Source of the DNA: Tenacibaculum tangerinum
GTDB taxonomy: Bacteria > Bacteroidota > Bacteroidia > Flavobacteriales > Flavobacteriaceae
NCBI RefSeq assembly: GCF_029853675.1
Contig: NZ_CP122539.1
Location: forward strand, 667,001 to 731,000
Length of the DNA: 64,000 nucleotides
Direction: 5' to 3'
Part shown: one piece after another, positions 28,358-35,938 of the stretch
Position numbering within the stretch: position 1 is the first letter of the stretch
Layout: every line of letters begins with the position of its first letter
Notes under the pieces: generated by a model
Databases searched by the model: none
What the model was told of the DNA's origin: nothing
Seen by the model: only the letters and a program-made list of their open reading frames with translations
Position numbers and translations under genes: made by a program

Positions 28358-28385
28358 ATGTACTATAATTAATATTATAGAAATA
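28358..28385 (+). other. Left prophage attachment site (hybrid dif)
   Basis: ATGTACTATAA-TTAATA-TTATAGAAATA has the XerC arm and 6-bp centre of the dif site at 35911-35938 but a degenerate XerD arm. The 20 bases TGTACTATAATTAATATTAT (28359-28378) are identical to 35912-35931. A hybrid site of this kind is what XerC-mediated integration of a phage genome leaves at one end. Confidence 0.85.
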
Positions 28386-28461
28386 GAAATTTCCAATTAT
28401 TTAAGGTGTTAACGTATTTTTAAGACAACTTCGCCTACACCTGCCCCTTTTATTTTCCAAA

Positions 28462-28469
28462 TATCTTTG
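28462..28469 (+). promoter_or_regulatory. Promoter -7 box of the first prophage gene
   Basis: TATCTTTG matches TAnnTTTG and lies 30 bases before the ATG at 28500. A -33 element is not clear. Confidence 0.5.
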
Positions 28470-28499
28470 TAACTTTTTTCTCAAAATAGAAAGAGAAAA

Positions 28500-29075
28500 A
28501 TGTCAATTAATTTTAGTATAAAAGATTACCGTGACTACTGTCATGAGCCACACAAAAAGAAGCCTTATTTTTTAACTGTTAATTCTAACGGTGAAAGGTT
28601 TTATTTTTCTAACAAGAAAAAGGCTGAAAGATGGCTTTCAAAGTTTTCAAAAGAATCTACCGAATTATACAAAGAGCTTGGTTCTTATTTATCTTCTCTC
28701 TACGAATTAAATATCTCATGTGTTGATATTATTAGCTTTGTCAATTTTCAGAAAAAGCGAAATGATATAGATTATTATTGTGAGAGATATTGGAGGGTTT
28801 TAAGGGGTTATACTTCAGGTATTGCTGTTGAGATAGGTACAGAGCTTTACAAGCTTTTTAATTTTATCCAATCTCAACAGGAATTTTACAGAAAGTTATT
28901 AAGGTCTCATAATAGATATAACTTAAAATATCACTCAATCAGAGTTCAAATAAAGCAATTAAAAAGGTTAAAAACAGATTTTGATTTGTTGCTTACTGAT
29001 GTAGACGGTATGAAAAAGGTTACTAAAACAGATGTTGATATCATTCATTCAGAACTTATTTTAGATATAGCTTAG
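28500..29075 (+). CDS. Prophage protein of unknown function (191 residues)
   Basis: No family is recognised. The protein is mostly helical and basic, with an early KAERWLSKFSKES segment and a C-terminal helix RVQIKQLKRLKTDFDLLLTD. It is the first gene after the left att site and behind a good promoter box. In small phages this position often holds a regulator or immunity protein. That assignment is inference from position only. Confidence 0.7.
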   Translation: MSINFSIKDYRDYCHEPHKKKPYFLTVNSNGERFYFSNKKKAERWLSKFSKESTELYKELGSYLSSLYELNISCVDIISFVNFQKKRNDIDYYCERYWRVLRGYTSGIAVEIGTELYKLFNFIQSQQEFYRKLLRSHNRYNLKYHSIRVQIKQLKRLKTDFDLLLTDVDGMKKVTKTDVDIIHSELILDIA

Positions 29076-29105
29076 TTTGTGAAATGAACATAAAATAAAA
29101 ATTTT

Positions 29106-29306
29106 ATGTCATATTTCAACCCTCAACCCGAAGTCGTACCTGTACATACATTACAGCAGGGCGACACATTTGTAAAATCTCGCAATGGTATGCCATGTGC
29201 TACCATCATGAACATGGTATGTATATACGATGATGTGTGCGAAGCCGAAACCCTCGACGGTACTATCAGGACATTTAACAAACGCACTTTGGTGTATAAA
29301 TTATAG
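29106..29306 (+). CDS. Small prophage protein (66 residues)
   Basis: Starting MSYFNPQPEVVPVHTLQQGD, this looks like a small beta-rich domain with a TFVKSRNG and TLDGTIRTFNKRTLVYKL ending. No known family was identified. It follows the 191-residue gene by 30 bases and precedes the zinc-ribbon gene by 4. Confidence 0.6.
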   Translation: MSYFNPQPEVVPVHTLQQGDTFVKSRNGMPCATIMNMVCIYDDVCEAETLDGTIRTFNKRTLVYKL

Positions 29307-29310
29307 TATT

Positions 29311-29529
29311 ATGTCTCGTTCTACTTGTGTTAAATGCGGTAAAAAACGCTATAGAAAATATATGCACCAAAGCGGCAGCTTTGATAAACACTCTGGTTTA
29401 CCTCATTGGATTTGTTTACATTCTTGTTCTTATAGTTATTATAAAAATACCTTAAGTCGTTCTTCTAGATATGACAATTTTACTGCAGTAAAAATGTCAG
29501 TTCCAGGCTTAAACAAAAAACATTCTTAA
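29311..29529 (+). CDS. Small zinc-ribbon-like prophage protein (72 residues)
   Basis: From ATG 29311 the protein begins MSRSTCVKCGKKRY and has a second cysteine pair CLHSC (35-39). The resulting CxxC...CxxxC arrangement suggests a zinc-binding nucleic-acid contact. The frame is open further upstream, but that part overlaps the preceding gene and does not look coding, so the start 4 bases after the previous stop is preferred. The next gene starts 2 bases after its stop. Confidence 0.62.
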   Translation: MSRSTCVKCGKKRYRKYMHQSGSFDKHSGLPHWICLHSCSYSYYKNTLSRSSRYDNFTAVKMSVPGLNKKHS

Positions 29530-29531
29530 TT

Positions 29532-29828
29532 ATGCCTGCAAAAGACAGAATAACATGGGAAAACAGGCGTATATATATCCTAGATAGGGTAAACGACGTC
29601 TTACAAGAAATAGGTCATCCGATTACCTTTACTCTTGAAGAACTAGAAAAAGGAATGTTGAAACATCATCCCGATTTCGTTGAAGTTAAAAAACGTATCT
29701 GTGAACGTTATTTATTTTGCGATTACAGAAGCTTTGACAACATGTTAAATCCATGGCAATGTAAGGAGCAGCAAACGTCTTTATTTCAGCCTAAAACGAA
29801 CCAATTACAATTATTTAACAACAATTAA
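29532..29828 (+). CDS. Prophage protein of unknown function (98 residues), upstream of rep
   Basis: The protein begins MPAKDRITWENRRIYILDRV and has a helical central part and a glutamine/asparagine-rich tail (KTNQLQLFNNN). No family was recognised. It ends exactly where the origin-like hairpin begins, so a role in replication or its control is plausible from position. Confidence 0.6.
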   Translation: MPAKDRITWENRRIYILDRVNDVLQEIGHPITFTLEELEKGMLKHHPDFVEVKKRICERYLFCDYRSFDNMLNPWQCKEQQTSLFQPKTNQLQLFNNN

Positions 29829-29862
29829 CCGTTATCACTAGTCTAGATGTCCGTGATAACGG
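29829..29862. other. Origin-like hairpin upstream of rep
   Basis: CCGTTATCAC (29829-29838) and GTGATAACGG (29853-29862) form a perfect 10-bp stem with a 14-base loop (TAGTCTAGATGTCC). No T run follows, so it is not a terminator. A second, weaker hairpin (AGCAA...TTGCT, about 29911-29931, flanked by AAAATC/GATTTC) follows before rep. Stem-loops placed just before an HUH rep gene are typical nick or complementary-strand origins. Confidence 0.55.
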
Positions 29863-29962
29863 GCGTCTTCTATTGGCTTGGCTAAACATAACGGGAAAAT
29901 CGAAAATCCGAAGCAATCCCCTGTGGTTGCTGAGAATTTTTGATTTCACATCGCCCCCTTAA

Positions 29963-31120
29963 ATGAACGCACCTGCGACCTTTATCGTTAAAAATAACGG
30001 ACTTACACAATTCTACGATGTGAGTTACTTGTCGTTTTCAAGAAACGGAGACACTTCTTCATTGAAACAAAATGCAAAAACACCTTATTCCGAGGCTATA
30101 AAACACCTAACAAAAAAAAATAGCTTAGATGTAATTGAAACAATAGAGTTTAAACACCAATTGCACCAAATGACAATGGCTAAAAGAGGCAAGCAAATCA
30201 AAGATTTAGGTACCTTGTCGCAATCACAGGTTAAGAAATGTCGTAAAGCTGTTGAGTGCATGATATCGACCATTATTTTTTCTAGAGATAAAAATATACA
30301 TTACAAAACACAGCAATACCCTGCTTTTGTTACCCTTACACTTCCGTCAAAACAAGTGCATAGCGACAAAGTTTTAAGAAAAGCCCATACACGTTACATC
30401 GAAAATCTTCAAAAAACATACGGTGTCAAGCATTACGTTTGGAAAGCGGAAGCCCAAAAAAATGGAAATATACATTTTCATCTACTTGTAGATAGGTGGA
30501 TTGATTGGACAGTTCATAGGAAGCTTTGGAATAAACAACTTGACAAGCTGGGATATATAGACACTTTTCAAAAACAGTACGGACACCGCAACCCTAATAC
30601 CATTGATGTACATAGCTTAAAACGTGATAAGAAAGGCAGAAAACTAAAAAATATAGGCAATTATATCATTAAATACATGACGAAAAGAGAGTTCGGTAAA
30701 CGTCCTATTTTGGGTAAAATATGGGGTTGCTCTAATGCTACTAAAAAACTTGACTATCCTAGATATGCAGAGGGAGAAACCCATTTTTATAAAATAATTG
30801 ACCTTATAAATAAATACGACTTTAAGCAAGTTGTTTGTGATGATTTTTTCGCTCACTGGGTGGGTAAATCATTTGAAATAATCAGCAAACGTACACGTAA
30901 TTTATGGAAAGACGTAAAAGAATGTTTTCAGCTTCAAAATGGCAATATAGAACCCCGAACATTGATGCAAAAAGAGTATCATAGGCTCACGAGGCAATAT
31001 ACTTTCAAACAAAACGAAAAAGAGCTTGTTATATCTTCACAGGAAAAAAACCAAAAAACCCCCATAGAAAAACAGTTATCTCTTTACTTTCCAAAATATG
31101 AGAATGGATTGTTTTCTTAA
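29963..31120 (+). CDS. rep: HUH-superfamily replication initiator (Rep) of the ssDNA prophage
   Basis: The 385-residue protein contains AFVTLTLPSK (motif 1, 121-130), NIHFHLLVDRWIDW with the metal-binding HUH histidines His171 and His173, and NYIIKYMTKREFGK carrying two candidate nucleophile tyrosines, Tyr234 and Tyr238, in a YxxxY arrangement. This is the layout of rolling-circle Reps of ssDNA phages. It would nick the origin, stay bound to the 5' end and restart the cycle with the second tyrosine. No helicase domain is present. It is preceded by 134 bases of structured non-coding DNA. Confidence 0.92.
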   Translation: MNAPATFIVKNNGLTQFYDVSYLSFSRNGDTSSLKQNAKTPYSEAIKHLTKKNSLDVIETIEFKHQLHQMTMAKRGKQIKDLGTLSQSQVKKCRKAVECMISTIIFSRDKNIHYKTQQYPAFVTLTLPSKQVHSDKVLRKAHTRYIENLQKTYGVKHYVWKAEAQKNGNIHFHLLVDRWIDWTVHRKLWNKQLDKLGYIDTFQKQYGHRNPNTIDVHSLKRDKKGRKLKNIGNYIIKYMTKREFGKRPILGKIWGCSNATKKLDYPRYAEGETHFYKIIDLINKYDFKQVVCDDFFAHWVGKSFEIISKRTRNLWKDVKECFQLQNGNIEPRTLMQKEYHRLTRQYTFKQNEKELVISSQEKNQKTPIEKQLSLYFPKYENGLFS

Positions 31121-31220
31121 CTGTTAAAATATAATAACCTCAAAGAAATAGTTTCCGTTAAAAAAAACACTATAGCGGTTTATTTGTACTTCATTAATAT
31201 TAATCTATAAACCAAAACAA

Positions 31221-31988
31221 ATGAGAAAAGAACTTTTAAATGGCTTAACGCAAAAAACTCACAAAATAGAGGACACTGACCAAACACAATTCTTAGTCCT
31301 CCAAAATGTTTCGACTGCTGCCAAAATTAAAACAGAAATAAAGCGTGAAAAAGGTAGAGACGAAAGGTTATTCAATACAATGAACGTCGCATTTTTAAAC
31401 GAGGCTCAAATAAAAGTTCAATCACTCTTGACATCACATGCTCCTAAACAATTTCAGTTAGCTACTGTAGCTAACGACGATGCTGGTACTACTGTGGTTG
31501 TTAAAGAAGCCGTCATTGATTTAGCTTATGGTGGAGAATTATTACAAAATCAAAACGACGTCATTGAAAACTACTTAACAACTTTAGGTAAAGTTACTGA
31601 TAGTTCTCTATTTATATTTGAAGCTGGTAAAGTAACACCACATCCTTATGTTGTTAAGGAACAAACTTATAAATCAACAGAAATTGATAAGAAAGTAGAT
31701 TTGACTCAAACTGATTTCTTGATTTTCGATGCTACTGCATTACCTTCTGAAATAGATATAAGAGTTAACGGTGAAAAGATAAATAGAACAGCTGAATCTT
31801 TATTAATAGACCAAAAAGACAGATTTGGTGTCATAGCATTTGACGAAAATGATAAACCAATATTTGGCACATATAAATCTGTTGTTTTGGATGTTAGAAT
31901 GGCTCAAGAAGTACGATTAGAGGACAATGCAGACCCTCGTATCGACATCAAATATTATTCAATAAAAACACCCTTAAAAAATGCTTAA
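31221..31988 (+). CDS. Candidate major capsid protein of the prophage
   Basis: The 255-residue protein has no signal peptide or membrane helix and is predicted to be largely beta: alternating strands such as SLFIFEAGKVTPHPYVVK, TDFLIFDATALPSEIDIRV and YKSVVLDVRMAQEVRLED. It is the first gene after rep, behind its own 100-base leader, and heads the structural block. Its size and position fit a small icosahedral capsid subunit. I cannot decide between single and double jelly-roll folds from sequence alone. Confidence 0.6.
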   Translation: MRKELLNGLTQKTHKIEDTDQTQFLVLQNVSTAAKIKTEIKREKGRDERLFNTMNVAFLNEAQIKVQSLLTSHAPKQFQLATVANDDAGTTVVVKEAVIDLAYGGELLQNQNDVIENYLTTLGKVTDSSLFIFEAGKVTPHPYVVKEQTYKSTEIDKKVDLTQTDFLIFDATALPSEIDIRVNGEKINRTAESLLIDQKDRFGVIAFDENDKPIFGTYKSVVLDVRMAQEVRLEDNADPRIDIKYYSIKTPLKNA

Positions 31989-32820
31989 TTATTCCTTAAA
32001 CTATGAGCCTATTCAGCTTGAAAGAAGTATACTTCCCACATCTTCAAATGGTTCTTTATTGTCTTCTATAGACTTGTCTGGCGGTATAACTCCAACTACA
32101 TTGGAGGATAATTTTTACAGCACATTAGATTCTGTTTTAGGTTCTATACCCGGAGGTTCTCTAGTCTCAGGAGCTATGGACTTCATAGGTATGGGTCCTC
32201 GTGAATGGTCTGAAGTACAAGAATATGAGCAAAATGAATGGAATTTAGATTTACAGTACGCACAAGAAAAGTACTTGAATAATACTTCCATTTCTTTAGA
32301 AAACAGGCTATCGATGTTCGATATGTATCTGAATGCTTATATACAGTACAATGTAGAGCGTCAGGATGATTTTAAAAGCTCCAATTCAATTAAAGGTCGC
32401 CAGTATAGGATAACTTTAGTTAAAGAGACTTTGTCTAACTTTAGAAGTAATTTATCTTTAAATTACAATGCTTCACCTCTTACGGAAAACGTTACGAAGT
32501 ACGATATACGTAATAGGAATAAAACCAGTTTATTAAAATGGATTTCTGTGCCTATTACATACAATGTATACACTCCCAAAACATCAATGCAGCCTGTTCA
32601 ATCTGTAGATATTTCGGGTTCTCCAGTTCAAAATGTAGGTACACCTATTACATCAAATGATGTAAGTATTCCAACTGATAGCCCTTATTATGGGAATAGT
32701 AGCCAAAACAATGAAACACCATTTAATTGGCTTTTTGTAATCATTCCTGCAGTTGGTGCGGGTTTGTTTTACTTAGGTAAAGTATTATATAAAAAATTCA
32801 AAAAAAATAAACAAAAATGA
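31981..32820 (+). CDS. Prophage structural/membrane protein (279 residues, C-terminal anchor)
   Basis: The start codon overlaps the capsid gene by 8 bases. The protein has a glycine-rich hydrophobic stretch (SVLGSIPGGSLVSGAMDFIG near 60), a long helical middle (95-160), a Ser/Pro/Thr-rich linker, and a C-terminal membrane helix (NWLFVIIPAVGAGLFYLGKV) followed by a lysine-rich tail. This pattern suggests a virion-membrane, vertex or DNA-delivery protein. No homologue is named. Confidence 0.68.
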   Translation: MLNYSLNYEPIQLERSILPTSSNGSLLSSIDLSGGITPTTLEDNFYSTLDSVLGSIPGGSLVSGAMDFIGMGPREWSEVQEYEQNEWNLDLQYAQEKYLNNTSISLENRLSMFDMYLNAYIQYNVERQDDFKSSNSIKGRQYRITLVKETLSNFRSNLSLNYNASPLTENVTKYDIRNRNKTSLLKWISVPITYNVYTPKTSMQPVQSVDISGSPVQNVGTPITSNDVSIPTDSPYYGNSSQNNETPFNWLFVIIPAVGAGLFYLGKVLYKKFKKNKQK

Positions 32821-32966
32821 AACAATGGTTTGAAAATACATGGGCTAAAACAAAAGAGTTCATGACTAAAGAATACTATGGCATACCTGTATGGGGTTAT
32901 GCAACAGGTGTTGTTGCTGTGGCAGTAGTAGCAATGTTATTAATTCCAAAAAAAAGGTATAAATAA
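32817..32966 (+). CDS. 49-residue single-pass membrane protein of the prophage
   Basis: The start ATG overlaps the previous stop (ATGA), and the TAA stop overlaps the next ATG (TAATG). Both overlaps argue that it is translated. The peptide begins MKQWFENTWAKTKEFMTKEY and has one transmembrane helix (GYATGVVAVAVVAMLLIP), then KKRYK. Small proteins like this line the internal membrane of lipid-containing phages or form coat peptides of filamentous ones. Confidence 0.8.
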   Translation: MKQWFENTWAKTKEFMTKEYYGIPVWGYATGVVAVAVVAMLLIPKKRYK

Positions 32967-33331
32967 TGGCACGAAGAACGAATAAAAACAGCAATTATAC
33001 CCCAAAGAGTGGTGCTAAGCTACACCAGTCTTTCGGTAGTAAAGAAGGTTTGTTTATGACTTGTTGGAAGGTGTCCGATGGCGTCATGTGGAGTGGTAAA
33101 GTATTCCGAAGCGAAAAGCAAAGCAAAGTAGCGCCCACAGTCTCTAGAAATGGCAAGGAGTGGTGTAGTGTTACTCTAGTGTTATCAGCGCCTATGCGTG
33201 ATACGGTAGTACATTCGGGTTTAATGAATACATCTAACCACAAAGTGTATTTTAAAGACTGGAATATGATCATTAACCCTAAAGCCTCTAACGGTGGTTA
33301 TTTTGGTAAACACATCTCTAAAAATTATTAA
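32966..33331 (+). CDS. Small basic prophage protein (121 residues)
   Basis: The protein is positively charged at both ends (MARRTNKNSNYTPK at the start, GGYFGKHISKNY at the end) and has a beta-rich middle (FMTCWKVSDGVMWSGKVFRS, WCSVTLVLSAP). It may bind the ssDNA genome or be a minor structural protein. It is translationally coupled to the 49-residue gene and followed by the next gene after 2 bases. No family was recognised. Confidence 0.65.
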   Translation: MARRTNKNSNYTPKSGAKLHQSFGSKEGLFMTCWKVSDGVMWSGKVFRSEKQSKVAPTVSRNGKEWCSVTLVLSAPMRDTVVHSGLMNTSNHKVYFKDWNMIINPKASNGGYFGKHISKNY

Positions 33332-33333
33332 TC

Positions 33334-33546
33334 ATGAAAAAAATCTTATCAAAATTTTTAAACGTAGGTAGTTATTTAAAAGGATTTGGCTCAAACGTAG
33401 ATAAAGCAATAGAGTACGGTGATAGCGGTTATAAAAGTATACTTCTTTATAAATCATTTTTCAAACACTTAAAAGCTTTCCGTGCTGACTGGATTGAGAT
33501 TTATGGCGAAGAAAAAGCCCAAAATAAAGAACAAAAAACAAAATAA
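33334..33546 (+). CDS. Small prophage protein (70 residues)
   Basis: The protein is helical and basic, starting MKKILSKFLNVGSYLKGFGS and ending in a charged tail (EEKAQNKEQKTK). It lies 2 bases after the preceding gene and 1 base before the endopeptidase ATG. Function is unknown. Confidence 0.6.
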   Translation: MKKILSKFLNVGSYLKGFGSNVDKAIEYGDSGYKSILLYKSFFKHLKAFRADWIEIYGEEKAQNKEQKTK

Positions 33547-33547
33547 T

Positions 33548-34108
33548 ATGTCAAATTTTTTAAGCCCATATAGAGATAACTACCCCAGTAATGTCGAGAA
33601 ATATAACACCCATCTAGCACCTCCGTTAGATGGATATAACGACAATCAAAGACTGTCAAGAAATTTGACTTTAGGCGAAATAAGAAAGGCGTCTTCTGTT
33701 GTAGATGGTGAGGTAAATTTGTTTACTTACATACCTCTTGACAAAAGATTAATTAACGCATTTCAAGCTTTGAGAAATGCGTTAAACGCTCCAATAGTTG
33801 TTAATAGTGCATTTAGAAGTGAAAGACACGAAAAGAAGCAGGGGAGGGATGGCACTAGTCAACATACCTACGGTGCTGCTCTTGACTTACGAGGGAGTGG
33901 ACTTGTTGAACTTGTCAAAGAGGCTTTGTCTACTAAAAACAAGTTGTATCAAACTTTGCGTGCTATTGGTGTTAATGGCTTCGGTGTTTATGAGAATGAT
34001 AATTTTATCCACATAGATGTAAGACAGCCAAAGTCTGATGGTGGCTACGCTTATTGGGAGGGAGACGAGGACGATGAGTTAAAAAAAAAGGAAGCTCTAC
34101 ACCTTTAA
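33548..34108 (+). CDS. M15-family peptidoglycan endopeptidase (prophage lysis or entry enzyme)
   Basis: From ATG 33548 the protein is 186 residues. It contains the M15 zinc site: NSAFRSERHEKKQGRDGTSQ leading to SQHTYGAALDLRGSG (His and Asp ligands) and a later NFIHIDVRQ (His ligand). Enzymes of this type cut stem peptides of the cell wall and serve as lysins or entry factors in ssDNA flavophages. The gene ends in GAG TTA AAA AAA AAG, which includes the classic slippery heptamer A AAA AAG. A -1 shift there adds a transmembrane tail (see the next feature). ATGs farther upstream overlap the previous gene and are rejected. Confidence 0.88.
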   Translation: MSNFLSPYRDNYPSNVEKYNTHLAPPLDGYNDNQRLSRNLTLGEIRKASSVVDGEVNLFTYIPLDKRLINAFQALRNALNAPIVVNSAFRSERHEKKQGRDGTSQHTYGAALDLRGSGLVELVKEALSTKNKLYQTLRAIGVNGFGVYENDNFIHIDVRQPKSDGGYAYWEGDEDDELKKKEALHL

Positions 34109-34191
34109 TTCTGAAACAGATATTAACTATAATAGCTTCTGCGATGACTGTCGTAGGTTTTTACAGGCTTATTAAAAACCGTAAAAAATGA
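34078..34191 (+). CDS. Frame -1 extension encoding a membrane helix (frameshift product or small protein)
   Basis: In the -1 frame relative to the endopeptidase, reading from the A9 run at 34081-34089, there is an open frame without a stop. It encodes KKGSSTPLILKQILTIIASA, then MTVVGFYRLIKNRKK: a membrane helix with a basic end. Its TGA (34189-34191) overlaps the next gene's start as ATGA, strong evidence that this frame is translated. It has no ATG at its beginning. Either -1 frameshifting makes a membrane-anchored endopeptidase, or a 15-residue peptide starts at ATG 34144. Confidence 0.55.
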   Translation, partial: VKKKGSSTPLILKQILTIIASAMTVVGFYRLIKNRKK

Positions 34192-34619
34192 AAAATATAA
34201 TTCAAAAATACGCCCTCTTAATAGGGGGCTTATTATTACTATTTATCCTCTTTTTTCAGTATCTAAAATCTTTTTTTAATTCAAAGAAATTTGGCTTCGA
34301 TGACTATTCTAACTCCTTAGACGAGAATGGTGCGACTATAGATGATTCAAAGGCTTACCGTTTAGCCGACATTCTTCATGTGTCTATGGCTTCTATTGGT
34401 ACTGATTTCGAAAGCATAAAAATAGCCTTATCTGGTCTTTCTCCTTCTGATTATGCTAAGGTTTATAATAGATTCGGTACTCGTGGTTACATAGACATAG
34501 TTGGGGTTGGTACTAACTTACCTACCGCTACTAAGTTGAATTTAACCCAATGGTTTCAAAGTGAGTTAACTAATTATGAAATTTTGGAGCTTAAAAGACT
34601 TTATCCTCTTATCTTTTAG
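34188..34619 (+). CDS. Membrane-anchored prophage protein (143 residues)
   Basis: It has an N-terminal membrane helix (ALLIGGLLLLFILFFQYLKS, about 9-28) and then a helical domain (SKAYRLADILHVSMASIGTD, SGLSPSDYAKVYNRFGTRGY). The second part looks like the annexin-like domains found in small phage and flavobacterial proteins, although that is only a resemblance. The start overlaps the -1 frame stop (ATGA). A virion-membrane or vertex protein is plausible. Confidence 0.7.
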   Translation: MKNIIQKYALLIGGLLLLFILFFQYLKSFFNSKKFGFDDYSNSLDENGATIDDSKAYRLADILHVSMASIGTDFESIKIALSGLSPSDYAKVYNRFGTRGYIDIVGVGTNLPTATKLNLTQWFQSELTNYEILELKRLYPLIF

Positions 34620-34716
34620 ATTTTCTACCTATGAAGTAAAACAGTAAACCTACAGCAATTGTATATATGCAAGCTATTACAATTAATTCAGGTACTCCGA
34701 TAAATAAGTATTTCAT
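34609..34716 (-). CDS. 35-residue antisense membrane protein of the prophage
   Basis: On the minus strand, ATG 34716 opens a 35-codon frame: MKYLFIGVPELIVIACIYTI, then AVGLLFYFIGRKSKR and TAA. It is almost entirely one hydrophobic helix with a positively charged end, much better than chance for this AT-rich spacer. It fills the only gap in the plus-strand gene array, between 34619 and 34758. It could be an immunity, holin-like or regulatory peptide. It is the only minus-strand gene in the element. Confidence 0.45.
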   Translation of the reverse strand: MKYLFIGVPELIVIACIYTIAVGLLFYFIGRKSKR

Positions 34717-34757
34717 AAGACGAATTTTTAATTAACCTTTCAAAAATACTAAAATAA

Positions 34758-34946
34758 ATGAATAATCTAGCTATAAATGCATTAAACGGTGTTTCGGGGC
34801 TTTCTATAAGCATTGCAGAAAACACCCCAATACCAGTTATTATTTATGCGGTTGTTCTCCTTATCACGGAGATATACAAGTACAAAAAATCAAAAATAAA
34901 ACAATGCAGTGATGACTGCAAAAAAGATAAAAATAATGTTAATTAG
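34758..34946 (+). CDS. Small membrane protein of the prophage (62 residues)
   Basis: One transmembrane helix (IPVIIYAVVLLITEIYKYKK) follows a short polar N-terminus. The tail is charged with two cysteines (CSDDCKK). A holin or virion-membrane role is possible. No family was recognised. Its end overlaps the next gene by 35 bases. Confidence 0.6.
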   Translation: MNNLAINALNGVSGLSISIAENTPIPVIIYAVVLLITEIYKYKKSKIKQCSDDCKKDKNNVN

Positions 34947-35109
34947 TTTTTTTGTAATAGTGTTGATAGTTTTCGCTAGTTTCTTTTCTCTTACTTTTTT
35001 ATTGATTTTTATACTATTGAGAATAAACAAACTTAAGCATTTAAGGGAGTATAGAAGCACTTTATTAAGTGGAGATTGTCAGCTTTACGAAACAACACAA
35101 AAAAAATAA
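34912..35109 (+). CDS. Small membrane protein of the prophage (65 residues)
   Basis: From ATG 34912 (a GTG at 34909 is also possible) the peptide has two adjacent hydrophobic stretches (IMLISFFVIVLIVFASFFSL and TFLLIFILLRI), then a basic region and a polar tail. The strongly hydrophobic hairpin-like character resembles holins. The overlap with the previous gene in another frame suggests coupled translation. Confidence 0.55.
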   Translation: MTAKKIKIMLISFFVIVLIVFASFFSLTFLLIFILLRINKLKHLREYRSTLLSGDCQLYETTQKK

Positions 35110-35115
35110 AAAATT

Positions 35116-35502
35116 ATGAGTGAAACGATACAAATAGAAAAACAATACATTAAGTTAAATGGTTTAACATTTATTGCTGAACCTGTTTTTGTACAATTAT
35201 CTCTTGAAGCCACTGGCGGTGTTCCTGAGTTAAAAAAGGTATATTTATCAGAAAATGAATTTTTTTACGGTGATTTATCTTGTGATACTTATGGCTTTTC
35301 CGATACATCATTTAAAGTTGGGGTTAACGGTGAATTATATTCCTTATCTTTCCCAGAGCTTGACTTTAAACGAAAAATGTTTTTTGATAACTTGTCAACT
35401 TTTCGTCCTGTTCAGTTTTTTTTTAACGGTCTCAAGCTTCGATTGTTAGGAGAATTTGAACCAACACTTCCATTTTATGATACAATAGAGGTTTATTTAT
35501 AA
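35116..35502 (+). CDS. Last prophage gene, unknown beta-rich protein (128 residues)
   Basis: The protein starts MSETIQIEKQYIKLNGLTFI and is rich in predicted beta strands and aromatic residues, without a signal or helix. It is the last gene before the terminator and right att site. In related small phages the distal gene can encode a spike or receptor-binding protein, but there is no direct support for that here. Confidence 0.62.
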   Translation: MSETIQIEKQYIKLNGLTFIAEPVFVQLSLEATGGVPELKKVYLSENEFFYGDLSCDTYGFSDTSFKVGVNGELYSLSFPELDFKRKMFFDNLSTFRPVQFFFNGLKLRLLGEFEPTLPFYDTIEVYL

Positions 35503-35509
35503 AACAAAA

Positions 35510-35540
35510 AAACAGCACTCAAAAGGTGCTGTTTCTTTTT
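35510..35540 (+). terminator. Prophage transcription terminator
   Basis: AAACAGCAC (35510-35518) pairs with GTGCTGTTT (35526-35534), 7-base loop, followed by CTTTTT. Confidence 0.85.
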
Positions 35541-35551
35541 GCAATCAATTT

Positions 35552-35601
35552 TTTTAAAACACTTTTTTTTTACTTTTTTTTACTTTTTTTTACTTTTTTT
35601 T
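35552..35601 (+). repeat. Tandem TACTTTTTTT repeats
   Basis: Four copies of a 10-base unit TACTTTTTTT (the first with an extra C-A context) lie between the prophage terminator and the dif site. On the other strand they read AAAAAAAGTA. They have no coding content and could mark a replication or packaging signal of the ssDNA genome. Confidence 0.7.
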
Positions 35602-35910
35602 ATGCTTTAGCGCACGTAGTAATTTTTGAATTTTATTGCCTTAAAAGGTTGTTTTTTTTAATTCTTGTGTAGCGCAGCGGAACTTTTTAAAAAAAGAACC
35701 AACCTTTGCAATTTTGATTCAATAGTACGCTAATTTTCCAATACAAATAATTTTCGTTATTTTTGTGATATTATTAACCACGTTCATTTACATAAATTAT
35801 GTTTAATCATAGAAATAGTTATTGAAGATAAAAACATTTGTTATAGCGTTTTATGTCTCTTCAAATATGTTCCGTTGGCGTTATTTTAACGCTTTTTTTT
35901 GAGTATCTAT

Positions 35911-35938
35911 TTGTACTATAATTAATATTATGTTAAAT
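35911..35938 (+). other. Chromosomal dif site / right prophage attachment site
   Basis: TTGTACTATAA-TTAATA-TTATGTTAAAT has the 11-6-11 layout of XerCD dif. The right arm TTATGTTAAAT is identical to the XerD-binding arm of E. coli dif, and the left arm ends in ATAA as expected for XerC. It marks the chromosome dimer resolution site and so the replication terminus. The prophage abuts its left side and has rebuilt a complete dif. Confidence 0.9.

Follow-up and report, generated by a model that had tools for sequence, protein, structure and literature searches.

Genome organization of the element

The window analysed here, a 64,000-nt stretch of the Tenacibaculum tangerinum chromosome (contig NZ_CP122539.1, positions 667,001 to 731,000), carries at positions 28,358 to 35,938 a compact element bounded by copies of the XerCD recombination site dif. 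This element is very probably the nearly or fully intact prophage of a tailless double jelly-roll phage, related to PhiCjT23 and to the single-stranded DNA (ssDNA) phages of Cellulophaga (Obscuriviridae), and integrated at dif by the host Xer recombinases along a route like that of the TLC phage. All of its listed genes lie on the forward strand, and its features are as follows.

28358..28385, +, left attachment site (attL): XerC arm ATGTACTATAA, centre TTAATA, degenerate XerD arm TTATAGAAATA (6 of 11 positions match dif)
28500..29075, +, first gene (191 aa); proteins of comparable length fill this slot in 8 of 8 Tenacibaculum elements (10-24% identity to that of the window)
29106..29306, +, 66-aa conserved small protein
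29311..29529, +, 72-aa Cys-rich small protein, variable slot
29532..29828, +, 98-aa conserved small protein
29829..29906, +, candidate rolling-circle origin: inverted repeat and conserved block
29963..31120, +, HUH Rep, PF23343 (REP_ORF2-G2P), motifs IHFH and YIIKYMTK
31221..31988, +, major capsid protein, 255 aa, predicted double jelly roll of PhiCjT23 type
31981..32820, +, 279-aa protein with a C-terminal membrane-like segment; slot of PhiCjT23 gp06, likeness positional only
32817..32966, +, 49-aa small protein, membrane-like as judged from its sequence
32966..33331, +, 121-aa virion protein family, homologous to PhiCjT23 gp07 and phi18:4 gp6
33334..33546, +, 70-aa small protein; slot of PhiCjT23 gp09, likeness positional (hhalign 3.6%)
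33548..34108, +, M15 peptidase (PF08291), 186 aa, candidate lysin
34188..34619, +, 143-aa protein with an N-terminal membrane-like segment
34758..34946, +, 62-aa membrane-like protein
34936..35109, +, 57-aa membrane-like protein with an assigned counterpart in 5 of 8 elements
35116..35502, +, all-beta protein of 128 aa, candidate penton/vertex protein; the FLiP penton is its best, though weak, Foldseek match
35911..35938, +, right attachment site (attR), a complete dif: TTGTACTATAA-TTAATA-TTATGTTAAAT

Neither an integrase family nor a Zot-type assembly protein turned up among the 15 open reading frames compared with PHROGs or the 12 of these compared with Pfam. The original prediction, made from the letters of the window, had described compact phage genes without an integrase, among them an HUH Rep, an M15 endopeptidase and a candidate capsid protein, and on all of these counts it was confirmed by the profile matches and the structure model given below.

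Attachment sites and chromosomal position

The 20-bp repeat TGTACTATAATTAATATTAT is located at 28359-28378 and 35912-35931, the two copies being spaced 7,553 bp apart. Exactly two copies are present in the window, and still only two when up to three mismatches are allowed (0.07 expected); in the single-contig genome of 3,610,406 bases they are likewise the sole perfect matches. Two extra genomic matches appear at three mismatches, which is the level of chance, since a control with the reversed pattern yields four at the same tolerance. The right copy lies within the complete site listed above, which is the only match of the genome to the 28-bp dif pattern (up to three mismatches). At this tolerance the pattern matches 123 of the 146 genomes of the genus, 119 of them once and four twice (in the carrier G022 the second match is its attL), compared with 6 of 146 for the reversed control; for the 23 genomes with no match, divergence or incompleteness may be the reason.

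GC skew was calculated for 20 sampled stretches. All 9 of those lying between 2.80 Mb and 0.72 Mb, counted through 0, have positive values, as against negative ones in 9 of the 11 between 0.80 and 2.52 Mb, and this switch of sign places a skew maximum within about 0.1 Mb of dif (0.703 Mb). The dnaA gene is situated at 0.25 Mb, away from the skew switch opposite dif, and was not taken as an origin marker. The right-hand copy of the repeat is the chromosomal dif. The earlier account of a 20-bp repeat bounding 7,553 bp, with dif complete at its right copy and the XerD arm degenerate at its left one, is thus in agreement with both site sequences, while its reservation that the repeat might not be the chromosomal dif is answered by the single dif match and the nearby skew maximum.

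In the nine elements tabulated, the 6-bp centre (TTAATA or TTTATA) is identical at both ends, and 5-8 of the 11 positions in the left XerD arm agree with dif, where the mean of the background is 3.4. The attP of the TLC phage has been described as having a XerC arm and centre nearly identical to those of dif and a degenerate XerD arm, the phage integrating as double-stranded DNA (dsDNA) (Das 2014, PMC4246890). According to the same source, a CTX-type attP needs two inverted dif-like sites with about 90 bp between them, and in VGJ the centre homology is absent next to XerD (PMC4246890). The element has a single site, dif-like in its XerC arm and centre but degenerate in its XerD arm. As far as can be judged from the site sequences, the anatomy therefore matches the TLC type and not the CTX type, and it is because of this anatomy that the TLC-phage route is expected. 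The Xer-exploiting architecture of the original prediction stands, then, whereas CTX phage as its model does not.

An element of CTX type, integrating as folded single-stranded DNA, would use the same site with no integrase of its own and could draw on the ssDNA produced by rolling-circle replication. We consider it improbable, since in nine elements a search extending 100 nt from the predicted attP detected no consistent inverted second arm pair (arms with up to two mismatches; single inverted arm-like matches with two mismatches occur in 4 of the 9), and since the centre homology is complete, unlike that of CTX or VGJ.

Along the TLC-like route, the att of the double-stranded element would supply a XerC arm and a 6-bp centre matching the host dif together with a poor XerD arm, and host XerC and XerD would recombine the integrase-free element with the single chromosomal dif through complete centre homology. 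Integration would rebuild a complete dif on the right, composed of the XerC arm of the element and the XerD arm of the host, and leave a crippled site on the left; with dif rebuilt, the host would keep its chromosome-dimer resolution. Xer dependence (in the TLC class, integration needs both XerC and XerD), the order of strand exchange (in that class, XerD first) and excision are predictions of this route.

Attachment sites of other elements showed some peculiarities. At the left end of the element in L009 (7040-7066), the sequence on the XerD side is still GCCTGTTAAAT, as in the T. discolor element. In L020, a second perfect XerC arm is located inside the element, 68 nt before the right dif in element orientation, and the XerC arm of the right junction is degraded (8 of 11).

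Virion proteins

The structure model of the 255-aa protein displays a double jelly-roll capsid fold, for which the closest match is PhiCjT23, and on this modelled fold the protein is the major capsid protein (MCP), in line with the jelly roll anticipated earlier. In a library of predicted viral structures, the best matches of the model had E values of 1.8e-7 or weaker, with archaeal, phage and giant-virus capsid proteins ranking below the top match. A microvirus identity was abandoned in view of the capsid fold. Profile comparison by hhalign gave 72.3% for the MCP family against the phi18:4 capsid and 93.4% for the 121-aa family against phi18:4 gp6, which is a virion protein according to the mass spectrometry annotation of its record. 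The PhiCjT23 capsid is in turn ∼36% identical, at 93-95% coverage, to the structural protein of phi12:2, phi12a:1, phi18:4, phi48:1 and Omtje. The link to ssDNA flavophages that had been proposed at the outset is therefore borne out.

The product of the last gene gave no informative sequence match in PDB. Its model is all-beta (pLDDT 72.5), and the top Foldseek match is the FLiP penton (E 0.0042), with a Z score of 6.0 against 6.3 for a rotavirus spike, that is, level with unrelated folds.

Replication and lysis modules

The Rep of the element matches PF23343 (E 1.4e-11). Upstream of it, an inverted repeat CCGTTATCAC/GTGATAACGG at 29829-29862 is followed by a block of TATTGGCTTGGC-AAACATAACGG type, which was found with few substitutions upstream of Rep in 8 of 8 Tenacibaculum elements and is accompanied by inverted repeats in several of them; in the related locus L091 the block has diverged. 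Judged by position and conservation, the leading candidate for a rolling-circle origin is 29829-29906, and the Rep would drive rolling-circle replication from this hairpin-flanked site just upstream of its gene.

The replication proteins of other phages belong elsewhere. PF02486 is matched by the Rep of PhiCjT23 (E 2.9e-5) and of Omtje (E 8.5e-7), both below the Pfam cut-off, and by that of phi18:4 (E 4e-7), above it; the PhiCjT23 and phi18:4 proteins are 33% identical. The FLiP Rep is assigned to PF05144 (Phage_CRI), as opposed to PF23343 in the element. A tblastn search with the Rep of the element against named phages revealed weak matches in five records (24-29% identity).

The M15 peptidase matches PF08291 (E 6.6e-17) and presumably acts in lysis. 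In 2 of the 8 Tenacibaculum elements the lysin slot is taken by a protein of PhiCjT23 gp10 type.

Distribution and empty sites

The capsid profile matches 8 of the 146 genomes of the genus, that of T. tangerinum included, and the Rep profile matches the same 8. Among nine capsid matches, again including its own, three homologues are from named species, namely T. mesophilum, T. discolor and T. dicentrarchi. The T. discolor element adjoins the same MFS gene as the element of the window. Of the 127 dif matches, the loci of 30 were read, and in 7 of these dif is adjoined by this gene, which follows the right end in the window. Five of these seven loci were fetched, leaving aside the carrier G022 and G020, and all five contain one dif and no capsid or Rep match, i.e., they are empty sites, with 76-90% nucleotide similarity to the right flank of the window. 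Part of the left flank was also found to the left of dif in four of the five; in L099, 338 bp of it are conserved at 90.8% and end 214 nt from dif, as against 205 nt in the window. The corresponding stretch in L096 may be a repeat, since it is present there twice.

Of 397 genomes sampled from the family, the capsid profile matches 4 and the Rep profile 3 (its own genome included), and these counts are lower bounds, because a divergent capsid gene in G245, a member of another genus, was missed at first and came to light through a second model alone (E 1.7e-5). Scans of viral contigs confirmed none of 12 candidate stretches as relatives with the capsid protein alone and none of 138 with a nine-row profile, and a scan of genome contigs with the capsid protein confirmed 2 of 118. 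In addition, a Rep cluster labelled Tenacibaculum maritimum (P0055) represents 59 member sequences, so that carriage of a related element may be frequent in T. maritimum.

Judged by its patchy distribution, the element is mobile. It had been pointed out earlier that the same 7.5 kb occurring fixed and decaying in all relatives would speak against a prophage; its presence in so few genomes of the genus disposes of this concern.

Site polarity and exchange of modules

In elements with a PF23343-type Rep (eight from Tenacibaculum and L091), the genes run in the XerC-to-XerD direction (9 of 9), whereas in PhiCjT23, phi18:4, Omtje, L092 and L093 the dif-like site lies on the strand opposite the genes (5 of 5, L093 being judged from a single recognisable site), the whole sample amounting to 14 sites. 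In PhiCjT23, whose circular genome is recorded in linear form, the dif-like site runs across the two ends of the record and was found by a circular scan. L092 and L093 encode capsids like those of PhiCjT23 and phi18:4 (E 2e-35 or better) and share another candidate Rep, 57% identical between the two; a PhiCjT23-type label for these Reps was dropped, as no such similarity was found.

In phi18:4 (L079, 5177-5193), the XerC arm and centre are perfect at 17 of 17 bases, and 0 of 200 dinucleotide shuffles reach one mismatch or fewer. The site of Omtje (Omtje_1; L080, 1132-1148) has one mismatch in the XerC arm and centre and makes a weaker case, because shuffles reach similar scores (two mismatches or fewer in 5 of 200 dinucleotide shuffles, one mismatch in 1 of 50 plain shuffles). 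No dif-like match better than four mismatches was detected in FLiP. These sites suggest an unrecognised temperate state in the Cellulophaga Obscuriviridae isolates, strongly for phi18:4 and less so for Omtje. It is quite possible, if rather doubtful as a whole, that the entire capsid lineage of PhiCjT23, Obscuriviridae and the Tenacibaculum elements is Xer-dependent and temperate, including Cellulophaga isolates with no annotated integrase, and that it swaps whole replication-plus-attachment modules. Opposite site polarity under one capsid type would then imply at least two independent acquisitions of a dif-like site, or a flip.

A tandem array is situated at dif in G245 (L091, 7793-17499, and L095, 472-12644). 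Its first element (9.7 kb) encodes a PF23343 Rep, a weak MCP match and an M23-like lysin (below the cut-off). The second (12.1 kb) encodes a 649-aa protein matching the FLiP Rep (E 1.2e-11) and a 325-aa protein matching the FLiP capsid (E 2e-6), and is bounded at its end by a dif-like site, after which comes a gene similar to the MFS neighbour in the window. FLiP-like putative prophages are mentioned in the paper that reports FLiP itself as non-integrating. Proteins related to the 143-aa family (34188-34619 in the window) are encoded in L091, in L092 and in the FLiP-like element of L095, and the T. discolor homologue of this family gives a weak annexin-repeat match (PF00191, below the Pfam cut-off).

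Interpretation

The assignment to a dif-integrated relative of PhiCjT23 is carried by the site itself, the empty sites, the modelled capsid fold, the gene order, the Rep family and the patchy spread across species. By kinship with the phages named above, the virion would contain ssDNA.

Several points weigh against this assignment. Excision, particles and ssDNA are predictions. No profile-level similarity was found between the Rep of the element and those of PhiCjT23, phi18:4 and FLiP (hhalign 0.3% against PhiCjT23 gp03 and 0.1% against the FLiP Rep), and replication and strandedness could therefore differ. Profile search yielded no homologue of the PhiCjT23 spike gp13, and a tenth element (L009) has a left end with no recognisable XerC arm or matching centre. 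Furthermore, the M15 peptidase of the window (186 aa) is devoid of the C-terminal hydrophobic segment fused in the other five M15 elements (213-216 aa); a similar segment is encoded in another frame past an A-run before 34100. The gene is apparently frameshifted at this run (region 34061-34191), which could reflect either an impaired copy in the window or an error of the assembly. Finally, the test in which pN (nonsynonymous) fell below pS (synonymous) in 11 of 11 genes compared is coarse, as the synonymous distances (Ks) are saturated, and it covers 11 of the 15 genes.

A defective or domesticated remnant at dif, having lost phage production, would fit the crippled left att, the apparent lysin frameshift and the lack of any direct sign of activity. 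Such a remnant is nevertheless very unlikely, considering that the element occupies so few genomes of the genus, with dif empty in others, that its other genes have lengths in or near the range of relatives, and that pN falls below pS as stated. A corticovirus-like (PM2-type) phage, with a double jelly-roll capsid, a rolling-circle Rep, packaged dsDNA and integration at dif, appears highly improbable as well. Base composition gave no separation of ssDNA from dsDNA.

Comparison with known phages

A temperate lifestyle at dif, which the original prediction rightly proposed, had been considered notable for such a virus, yet it is already published: PhiCjT23, a membrane-containing ssDNA phage with a genome of 7,642 nt, is described as temperate, and alongside it are described 57 putative prophages of Flavobacterium, 6,021-8,407 bp long and bounded at either end by a putative dif site (Kejzar 2022, PMC9719478). 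The novelty of the element is for this reason that of a variant and not of a new kind: it is a tailless prophage integrated at dif and related to PhiCjT23, in which the replication module has been replaced. The word Tenacibaculum is absent from the main text of PMC9719478, and a literature search on Tenacibaculum, prophage and ssDNA returned no paper, PMC8776804 included, whose title or opening of the abstract describes the element. Use of dif by non-tailed double jelly-roll vibriophages has also been reported (PMC9966536).

TLC, VGJ and CTX of Vibrio likewise use host XerCD at dif, the TLC attP having the same arm pattern. They are, however, filamentous or satellite phages, and their typical families were absent from the PHROGs and Pfam scans made here. 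The microvirus-related proviruses of Bacteroidetes, small, integrase-free and located at dif-like sites (Krupovic and Forterre 2011, PMC3091885), differ in their microvirus-related capsid and their Bacteroidales hosts. FLiP (Finnlakeviridae) differs in its larger capsid protein, Phage_CRI Rep and 9.2-kb genome, and is reported not to integrate.

Obscuriviridae, a family created for such phages and placed in no realm (PMC12451628), are represented here by Cellulophaga phages phi12:2, phi12a:1, phi18:4 and Omtje, and in the comparison with phi18:4 they share the capsid and gp6 virion proteins with the element. They differ in having a Rep_trans-type Rep and a glucosaminidase lysin, which belong to the common core of the family (ICTV 2025) and neither of which is present in the element, and a genome of 6.5 kb; their annotated genes include no integrase, and no prophage state is described in the excerpts of the literature available. 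Given its perfect XerC arm and centre, the cultured phi18:4 could be lysogenic at dif.

The closest comparison is with PhiCjT23 (ON067806), which here alone represents its group, including the 57 prophages. Both have the same capsid fold and size class, a second virion protein (gp07), about 7.6 kb of DNA flanked by dif, no integrase, and the broad gene order Rep-MCP-...-lysin-...-vertex gene; the gp10-type lysin is held in common with two Tenacibaculum relatives. As in the PhiCjT23-like group, Rep closely precedes the MCP, the size is within about 6.0-8.4 kb and dif is present at both ends, but a PF02486-type Rep homologous to gp03 is replaced by one of PF23343. The two also differ in host genus, in the M15 lysin of the element and in the attachment site, which lies on opposite strands relative to the genes. 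With the element, the range of dif-integrating double jelly-roll phages of the ssDNA type comes to include Tenacibaculum, and that of its Rep type one further genus; one capsid type is thereby seen to travel with different replication modules and lysins.

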